The position numbers and the translations under genes were made by a program. The notes below the pieces were generated by a model. The model was not told the DNA's origin and did no database searches. It worked only from the letters and a program-made list of their open reading frames with translations. Shown here in pieces: positions 29,146 through 32,791 of a stretch of DNA of 34,588 bases; the first letter of the stretch is position 1; the number at the start of each line of letters is the position of its first letter. The stretch is from Planctomycetota bacterium (lineage in GTDB: Bacteria; Planctomycetota; Phycisphaerae; Tepidisphaerales; Tepidisphaeraceae). The DNA lies in assembly GCA_039182125.1 (NCBI GenBank), contig JBCDCH010000041.1, forward strand, positions 1 to 34,588, in the 5' to 3' direction.

Positions 29146-29198
29146 CGCTTTGAGTCTAAGCGCTGCACACACGGTCGGTGTACGGTAACATCCTCAAC

Positions 29199-30521
29199 AT
29201 GACCCTGATGACCGAGACCCCCACTGACGCCCGCCCGGTCGACGGCGGCACCCCGCCCGATACCGACTTCAAAACCCGATACACCACCGTTCGCAAAGCG
29301 ACCACCGACTTCTGCGAACCCCTCTGCCCGGAGGATTTCGTCGTTCAGACGATGCAGGACGTCTCGCCCACCAAGTGGCACCTGGCCCACACCAGCTGGT
29401 TCTTCGAGACCTTCCTCCTCTCGCCCCACCTCCCCGGCTATCGCGAGAAACATCCGCTCTACAACTATCTGTTCAACAGCTACTACGTCTCGGTCGGCGA
29501 TCGACACTGTCGCATCGCGCGCGGGAACATCTCCCGCCCCACCGTGGACGAGGTCTTCGAGTACCGCCGGTACGTCGACGAGCACATGCATCGACTCATC
29601 GACGCGGGACTCACCGACGAGACGGCCGCACTCGTCGAACTCGGGCTACACCATGAGCAACAGCACCAGGAGCTGATGGTCACCGACCTCAAGCACGTGC
29701 TCAGTGCGAACCCGCTCTACCCGGTCTACCGCGAGCTCGCCGACCCACCGCTCGGCAAGCCCGCACCGTTCTCGTTCGTGCCGTTCGAGGAAGGCGTGTA
29801 CCCGATCGGGCATCACGCCGAGGAAGACTGTCGGTTCTGCTACGACAACGAAACGCCTCGGCATCGGGTGTTTCTCGAGCCGTTCGCGCTGGCCGACCGG
29901 CCGTTGCTCAACGCCGACGTGATCGCCTTCATCGAGGACGGCGGCTACGACACCGCGAACCTCTGGCTCTCGGCCGCTTGGGCGCAGATCAACGCCGACC
30001 CCAAGGACTGGAAGCAGCCGCTCTACTGGGACAAGGTCGACGGCGTTTGGCACCACTTCACGCTCCACGGCTTCGTCCCGGTCGACCCCGCCGAGATCGC
30101 CTGCCACCTCTCCTACTACGAAGCTGACGCGATCGCGCGTTGGATGGACTACCGCCTGCCGACCGAGTTCGAGTGGGAAGTCGCCTGCAACCAGGCCGGT
30201 GAGATGGACGGCGTCTTCGCCGATGACAAGCGTTTCCACCCCGGACGCGCACCCGATCTCAAATCTCCAATCTCAAACCTCAAATCCGCCCTCGGCGGCG
30301 TGTGGGAATGGACCCAATCGCAGTACACCGCCTACCCCGGCTATCGCAGCCTGCCCGGCGCGATCGGTGAGTACAACGGCAAGTTCATGGCCAACCAGTT
30401 CGTGCTCCGCGGCGGCTCCTGTGCGACGCCCCGCAGCCACATACGACCGACCTACCGCAACTTCTTCCCCGCCGACGCCCGTTGGCAGTTCAGCGGAGCA
30501 CGTCTGGCCAAGAGTCTCTGA
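29199..30521 (+). CDS. egtB: Ergothioneine biosynthesis sulfoxide synthase EgtB
   Basis: A 440-residue non-heme iron enzyme joining a sulfur donor to hercynine. An N-terminal DinB-like domain (about 30-185) holds the iron ligands: His in KWHLAHTSWFFE (residues 61-64) and the HX3HXE motif at H152-H156-E158. A formylglycine-generating-enzyme-type domain follows, ending with GEYNGKFM, VLRGGSCATPRSHIRPTYRNFFP and RWQFSGARLA. A heptanucleotide repeat at 30258-30285 encodes the odd linker DLKSPISNLKS between the two halves of the C-terminal domain. ATG 29199 is preferred; 29178 is possible. egtD follows 84 bases later. No egtA, egtC or egtE is seen nearby, so donor choice (cysteine or gamma-glutamylcysteine) is open. 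Confidence 0.95.
   Translation: MTLMTETPTDARPVDGGTPPDTDFKTRYTTVRKATTDFCEPLCPEDFVVQTMQDVSPTKWHLAHTSWFFETFLLSPHLPGYREKHPLYNYLFNSYYVSVGDRHCRIARGNISRPTVDEVFEYRRYVDEHMHRLIDAGLTDETAALVELGLHHEQQHQELMVTDLKHVLSANPLYPVYRELADPPLGKPAPFSFVPFEEGVYPIGHHAEEDCRFCYDNETPRHRVFLEPFALADRPLLNADVIAFIEDGGYDTANLWLSAAWAQINADPKDWKQPLYWDKVDGVWHHFTLHGFVPVDPAEIACHLSYYEADAIARWMDYRLPTEFEWEVACNQAGEMDGVFADDKRFHPGRAPDLKSPISNLKSALGGVWEWTQSQYTAYPGYRSLPGAIGEYNGKFMANQFVLRGGSCATPRSHIRPTYRNFFPADARWQFSGARLAKSL
30258..30285 (+). repeat. Heptanucleotide tandem repeat (CTCAAAT)4 in egtB
   Basis: Four consecutive seven-base units, CTCAAAT, CTCCAAT, CTCAAAC and CTCAAAT, in an AT-rich patch inside a GC-rich gene. Because 28 bases is not a multiple of three, copy changes would shift the frame. 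It encodes part of DLKSPISNLKS. Confidence 0.85.
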
Positions 30522-30605
30522 CATTTCACGCAATCACAACCAATCCGACCGAGGCAGCCGCTAAGGTCCTTCCGACGAACGCAGTACCCCGTCGCCCATT
30601 ACACG

Positions 30606-31544
30606 ATGCCCACAACCGCCCCGAAGACCCTCCTCGACGAAGTATGTGATTCTCTTTGCTCGGATCGGCCGCACCTGCCGTGCAAGCTGCTCTACGACGA
30701 CGCCGGCAGTGAACTGTTCGAGCGCATCTGCGACCAGCCCGAGTACTACCAGACGCGAACCGAGCAAAAGATCCTCCGCGACAACGCGCGGTCAATCGCC
30801 GACGAGGTCGGCCCGGACGCGGTGCTCGTCGAGTACGGAGCCGGCAGCGGCGTGAAGACCGAAACGGTTCTCGGGGCGATGCGGGACTGCGCGGGGTATG
30901 TGCCGCTGGACATCAGCACATGGATGCTCGACACCTGCGCGGGGCATTTGCGGCCGAAGTTCCCCGAGCTGCGGATCGAGCCGGTGCGGGCGGACTACAC
31001 GCAGCCGGTCACGCTGCCTGACACCGTCGATGACGCGGACAACGTCGTCGCGTTCTTTCCCGGCGGCACCATTGGCAACTTCACCCCGCCCAAGGCCACG
31101 CGCTTCCTGGCCAACATCGCCAGCACCGTCGGCGGCGGTGGTGGCCTGCTCATCGGCTTTGACCTGCGCAAGGATCCGCTGACCCTCCACGCCGCCTACA
31201 ACGATGCGGCCGGCGTCACCGCGGAGTTCAACCTCAACCTCCTACGTCGCCTCAACCGCGAACTCGACGCCGACTTCGACCCCGAGCTCTGGCGGCACTA
31301 TGCCCCCTACAACCCCGGCAAGGGCCGCATCGAAATGCATCTGGTCTCGCTCGCACACCAGACCGTCACCATCGGCAACCGCCCGTTCCACTTCCGTCGA
31401 GGCGAATCCATCCACACCGAGAACAGCTACAAGTACACCCGCCCCGGCTTCGCCGAAGTCGCCGACGACGCCGGTTGGGACGTCCAACACACCTGGGTGG
31501 ACCAGAACGAACTCTTTTGCGTCGAGTACCTCACCGCACGGTGA
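30606..31544 (+). CDS. egtD: L-histidine N-alpha-methyltransferase EgtD
   Basis: A 312-residue SAM-dependent enzyme that makes hercynine from histidine by three methylations, the first step of ergothioneine synthesis. The EgtD-type start LLYDDAGSELFERICDQPEYYQTRTE is clear. The SAM motif is VEYGAGSGVKTE (GAGSG at 78-82), then FFPGGTIGNF, and the substrate-binding C-terminal stretch IHTENSYKYT, whose Glu and Ser match those that bind histidine in characterised EgtD. Start ATG 30606. It lies directly downstream of egtB on the same strand. Confidence 0.96.
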   Translation: MPTTAPKTLLDEVCDSLCSDRPHLPCKLLYDDAGSELFERICDQPEYYQTRTEQKILRDNARSIADEVGPDAVLVEYGAGSGVKTETVLGAMRDCAGYVPLDISTWMLDTCAGHLRPKFPELRIEPVRADYTQPVTLPDTVDDADNVVAFFPGGTIGNFTPPKATRFLANIASTVGGGGGLLIGFDLRKDPLTLHAAYNDAAGVTAEFNLNLLRRLNRELDADFDPELWRHYAPYNPGKGRIEMHLVSLAHQTVTIGNRPFHFRRGESIHTENSYKYTRPGFAEVADDAGWDVQHTWVDQNELFCVEYLTAR

Positions 31545-32194: not shown

Positions 32195-32791
32195 ATGGGC
32201 AAAGACGCCAGCGATTACGAAGACAAGTACACCAAGCCCAAGCTCCGCGCGAAGCTGAAGAAGGAAATCAAGGCCTCCGACAAGGGCGGCGAGCGGGGCG
32301 AATGGTCCGCACGCAAGTCCCAGCTGCTCGTCCAAGAGTACTAAAAACAAGGCGGCGGGTACAAGGACGACGACGAGCTGACCGAGGACCAGGAGTCGCT
32401 CAAGAAGTGGACCGACGAGAACTGGCAAACCATCGACGGCGAAGCCGACGCCGACCTGCCCGACGGCGGCAAGAAGCGCTACCTGCCCGAGAAAGCGTGG
32501 GACCTGCTCAGCGAGGAAGAAAAGGAAAAGACCGAGCGGAAGAAGGAAAACGAAGGGGCCGAGGGGGCGAAGCAGTTCGTCGAAAACACCGTCGCGGCGA
32601 AGGCTGCACGGAAGTTCGTCAGCCACGGCGATGCATCGGACCTCTCGGCCGACCAGCTCGAACGCCTGACCAAGGACGAGCTCTACGACATCGCCAAGGA
32701 CGAAGACATCGACGGCCGCAGCAAGATGGACAAATCCGAACTCGCCGAGGCGATCGAGGAGCACACTCGAATCGACTCGTCGCCGGTCTAA
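32195..32791 (+). pseudogene. DUF5872-like gene interrupted by an in-frame TAA
   Basis: From ATG 32195 the frame encodes 49 residues (ending GEWSARKSQLLVQEY) to TAA 32342-32344. The same frame then continues with KQGGGYKDDDELTEDQESLKKW, NWQTIDGEAD, GGKKRYLPEKAWDLLSEEEKE and KQFVENTVAAKAARKFV to TAA 32789-32791. In my memory of DUF5872 proteins, 'SARKSQLL..EY' joins directly to '[EK]K.GGGYK' and 'KRYLPEKAW', so the homology crosses the stop without a frameshift; a single change (TAA for AAA or GAA) explains it. The last 40 residues (LTKDELYDIAKDEDIDGRSKMDKSELAEAI) look like a Rho_N/SAP-type helical module. It is either a recent pseudogene, a readthrough gene or an assembly error. Cytoplasmic, Lys/Glu-rich, function unknown. 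Confidence 0.75.

Follow-up and report, generated by a model that had tools for sequence, protein, structure and literature searches.

Does a stop codon inside a conserved bacterial reading frame mark a lost gene, a recoded gene or a wrong base? The question is raised by a DUF5872-like gene in a Planctomycetota bacterium, located on contig JBCDCH010000041.1 of assembly GCA_039182125.1, whose 34,588 nucleotides are called the window here. The gene occupies 32195..32791 on the forward strand. It begins with ATG, runs for 49 codons to an in-frame TAA (32342..32344), continues for another 148 codons and ends with a second TAA (32789..32791). The first-pass annotation had offered a very recent mutation, stop readthrough or a base-call error as origins of the internal stop.

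Reading frame and domain composition

The coordinates and the open frame on either side of the internal TAA were confirmed, and no frameshift was present across 32195..32791. Third-position GC was 0.857 upstream and 0.858 downstream of the internal stop, as expected for one coding frame. A family profile of 23 rows, the window's own sequence among them, matched across the internal TAA with an E-value of 5e-54 and reported '1 TAA' inside the match; the continued frame is thus not a product of chance. A second copy of the gene was not present in the same genome. The neighboring genes at 29178-31544 encode an FGE-sulfatase/DinB protein and a histidine-specific methyltransferase, an EgtB/EgtD-like pair that suggests the synthesis of ergothioneine.

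The readthrough protein matched two phage protein families of unassigned function, PHROG 17747 at residues 11-57 (E = 1.2e-17), across the stop, and PHROG 14910 at residues 63-137 (E = 5.9e-16). Both matches were significant, and the residues invariant in the alignment (WSAR..Q, G.Y, W and RYLP) were kept. The 49 codons before the stop (32195..32341, forward strand) encode most of the N module, with the motif WSARKSQ. The end of this module lies beyond the stop (32345..32365, forward strand) and holds KQGGGYK; the GGGYK in it, earlier described as conserved-looking, belongs to a motif conserved in the family. The C module follows at 32381..32605 (forward strand) with the WTxxxW and RYLP motifs, and a Rho_N/SAP-like module of residues 154-189 (32654..32761, forward strand) closes the protein. 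The latter was already recognized in the first reading of the sequence and is borne out by Pfam PF07498 with 25.2 bits, just above the cut-off of 24.9. Homology is hence intact on both sides of the TAA, as had been stated. The family label stood only in part: Pfam PF19197 (DUF5872) matched residues 15-83 with an E-value of 2.6e-4 and 22 bits, below its curated cut-off of 27.5, so that the protein is DUF5872-like, but falls short of membership by the Pfam rule. Since the Pfam model is weak here and the search based on it missed some relatives, these were searched again with an alignment profile. In the papers searched, nothing was found on PHROG 17747 or PHROG 14910, and DUF5872 was found only as a listed gene of an algal virus, in one paper.

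A structure model of the readthrough protein, with the TAA entered as E for folding only, reached a mean pLDDT of 80 and a pTM of 0.52. Residue 50, the site of the stop, was modeled near the end of a helix of residues 39-51. The fold search of the model gave no PDB match at E ≤ 0.001, and a profile search against PDB sequences gave no match. Over about 45 residues the tail resembled weakly the N-terminal region of Rho in the fold search, which makes nucleic-acid binding conceivable, as the first-pass annotation had held, and in our view the probable role of the intact protein. Sequences of the tail type (TKDELYDIAxxxxIxGRSKMxKxEL-like) were matched on their own in numerous bacteria (L164, L173, L004-L024), and the tail thus looks like a shared, mobile module.

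Relatives and the codon at position 50

An intact relative belonging to the same class, G381, served for comparison. Its protein also begins with MGK and aligns with residues 1-189 of the window protein without an insertion or deletion. The same order of modules occurs in G381 (L163), in Neolewinella xylanilytica (L003), on a Phaeobacter plasmid (WP_102898356.1, L029) and on an Azospirillum plasmid (L030). The proteins of G381, Neolewinella xylanilytica and Phaeobacter comprise, like the window protein, the N module, the C module and one or two Rho_N/SAP-like modules; they differ from it in a sense codon at the stop site, with no internal stop, and in one additional Rho_N-like repeat. Viral contigs commonly carry the family, and a single scan gave at least 582 relatives. 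Within the phylum, 2 of 392 genomes, one of them the window's own, have the domain itself, and the gene is therefore patchily distributed.

None of 192 distinct relatives, all from outside the genus, has a stop at this codon. The residue is lysine in 176, glutamate in 13, arginine in two and glutamine in one of them. G381 carries GAG where the window has TAA, and the relatives' codon is mostly AAA, AAG, GAA or GAG; AAA and GAA are one substitution away from TAA. In a pattern scan of viral contigs, no match had a stop at this codon, while the lysine/glutamate pattern gave at least 120 matches, although the stop pattern tolerated more variants upstream. Disabled copies exist elsewhere in the family: one cellular copy (L168) has an in-frame TAG near position 1780 (DSLS*DEY), and another (L172/L175) has a frameshift ahead of RYLP. 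Loss of the gene thus recurs, which makes a real loss in the window plausible. Premature stops suspected in L169, L170 and L174 were rejected, these in-frame 'stops' being ordinary gene ends.

Conservation beyond the stop codon

An old nonsense mutation would leave the downstream codons free to decay. Between the window protein and that of G381, amino acid identity was 73 % upstream of the stop and 62 % from there to residue 150. The dN/dS ratio, which the first-pass annotation had called for, was 0.20 upstream and 0.38 (to residue 150) or 0.44 (to the end) downstream. Neither difference is a sign of decay: nearly all intact pairs share the lower downstream identity, which is thus a property of the family, and intact relatives show the same asymmetry in dN/dS. 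All 20 downstream columns that are conserved in at least 80 % of 12 other proteins were kept in the window. In three-way comparisons with 11 outgroups, the downstream changes unique to the window were equal to or fewer than those of the intact G381 with every outgroup except one, the Phaeobacter protein (L029), with five window-specific changes against three for G381. A second alignment, of mostly viral sequences, has 26 conserved downstream columns, of which the window matches 21; the remaining five depart from the viral consensus. Neither a relaxed constraint beyond the stop, nor an acceleration relative to G381, nor the several disabling downstream mutations named in advance as a refuting outcome were observed at this locus. 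This limits the age of the stop, and a fresh pseudogene still fits.

The limit was estimated by a neutral simulation that starts from the 21 matching codons and requires that no new stop appears. Intactness had a probability of 0.55 after 0.01 substitutions per site, which fell to 0.047 after 0.05 and to 0.0025 after 0.1. The simulation leaves the stop an age of less than about 0.05 neutral substitutions per site, which is short beside the distance to G381 (dS about 0.85-1.0). Together, the intact downstream sequence and the simulation argue that the stop is either very young or not real.

The two-gene form in phages and stop readthrough

In marine phages the two modules are often separate genes, whereas the window has them in one frame with a Rho_N-like tail and an extra stop. 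Such split copies were found in marine phages and viral contigs (L025 1384-2153, L026 1489-1919 and many among L067-L295). The N module of 107 distinct viral copies stops at most 26 residues from the W of WSAR, nearly always directly after GGGYK or one residue on. Most of these copies have the C module close by, as a gene that has a start of its own and often an ATGA or TAATG overlap. By pattern-based counts on a sample biased by its two scans, the two-gene form accounts for more than half of the copies collected, almost all of them viral, and about 77 copies are fused, the cellular copies among them. In Puniceispirillum phage HMO-2011 (L028 1282-1868) the N module stands alone; the gene at the usual place of the C module has no resemblance to it.

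The internal TAA could accordingly be read as a cellular case of this division, with the N and C modules made as two proteins. The natural precedent of some 107 viral copies cut after GGGYK speaks for it, yet their break point lies about eight codons downstream of the window stop, which precedes GGGYK, unlike in every natural N half examined. Moreover, after the internal TAA no in-frame ATG, GTG or TTG occurs before residue 178, near the end of the protein, so the C part cannot initiate alone from a common start codon; a downstream restart was rejected for this reason. Judged from the sequence, the window stop is distinct from the phage split in its earlier position and in the missing start for a second part, and we regard production of two separate proteins as very unlikely.

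A functional readthrough, in which an amino acid is inserted at UAA and both a short and a long protein are made, would require purifying selection downstream of the stop, and this is what the conserved columns indicate. Several findings speak against it. UAA has the lowest readthrough of the three stop codons in bacteria (PMC5289835). None of the 53 tRNAs found has a TTA, CTA or TCA anticodon, and a suppressor tRNA was rejected on this ground. A stimulatory stem is absent, the 80 bases after the stop folding worse than their shuffles (z = +1.5), and none of the relatives compared, all from other genera, has kept the stop. A change of the genetic code was likewise rejected, as TAA terminates 6 of the window's 28 likely frames, nuoL and nuoK among them, and closes this gene as well. 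Readthrough is therefore disfavored among the origins first proposed, and we give it hardly any credence. In a related scenario the stop would be fixed in the species and passed by some ribosomes, yielding a short N-module peptide and a little full protein. Such a leaky stop would be the cellular counterpart of the phage two-gene form; the scenario as a whole appears highly improbable.

Origin of the stop codon

The two other origins, a recent mutation and a base-call error, fit all findings. Taken together, we consider it highly probable that the TAA is a very recent nonsense change or else one erroneous base in the consensus or an allele of a minor strain. With a real and very recent mutation, the locus would be a dispensable accessory gene that has only just become a pseudogene, for which we see close to an even chance. 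The patchy occurrence in the phylum, the disabled cellular copies (TAG in L168, frameshift in L172) and the good appearance of the genome consensus are in its favor; the narrow time span below the simulated age limit is its difficulty. As in a nonsense pseudogene, a single premature stop interrupts a frame that otherwise resembles the family, but the gene lacks any further sign of decay, and the stop would be either extremely young or an assembly error.

We read the gene as an accessory bacterial one, interrupted at codon 50, whose DUF5872-like protein has two modules and a Rho_N/SAP-like tail. If the TAA is real, translation would stop close to the end of the helix containing WSARKSQLLVQEY, and the product would be a fragment of 49 residues that lacks GGGYK as well as the C module and the nucleic-acid-binding-like tail. 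The gene would in effect be a fresh pseudogene, and we infer a loss of function of the interrupted gene.

With a consensus base error or a minor-strain allele, the living gene would have a sense codon at 32342 and be intact; this is a substantial possibility, somewhat short of even. The absence of any downstream decay, the sense codon in every relative, mostly a codon type of which AAA and GAA differ from TAA by one base, and the draft state of the assembly (131 contigs) are in line with such an error. The exclusion of an old neutral decay, which leaves a real mutation only a very young age, also favors it. On the other hand, the long genes scanned in the window look complete, with no other broken gene among them. 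Internal stops were likewise absent from the ABC domains of the genome (53 of 53 clean), so that the error rate is low and consensus errors are not common. On balance, we lean slightly towards a real mutation over a consensus error, a division that is a matter of judgement.

Whether it is a fresh nonsense change or a base error, the stop itself is of little weight, and the case advises caution: premature stops in single genomes should not be taken as readthrough. Of more interest is a by-product of the analysis, the recognition that a widespread, uncharacterized viral and bacterial domain consists of two modules. Phages often split them into two genes at a constant break point, which offers a handle on a protein family to which no function is assigned.
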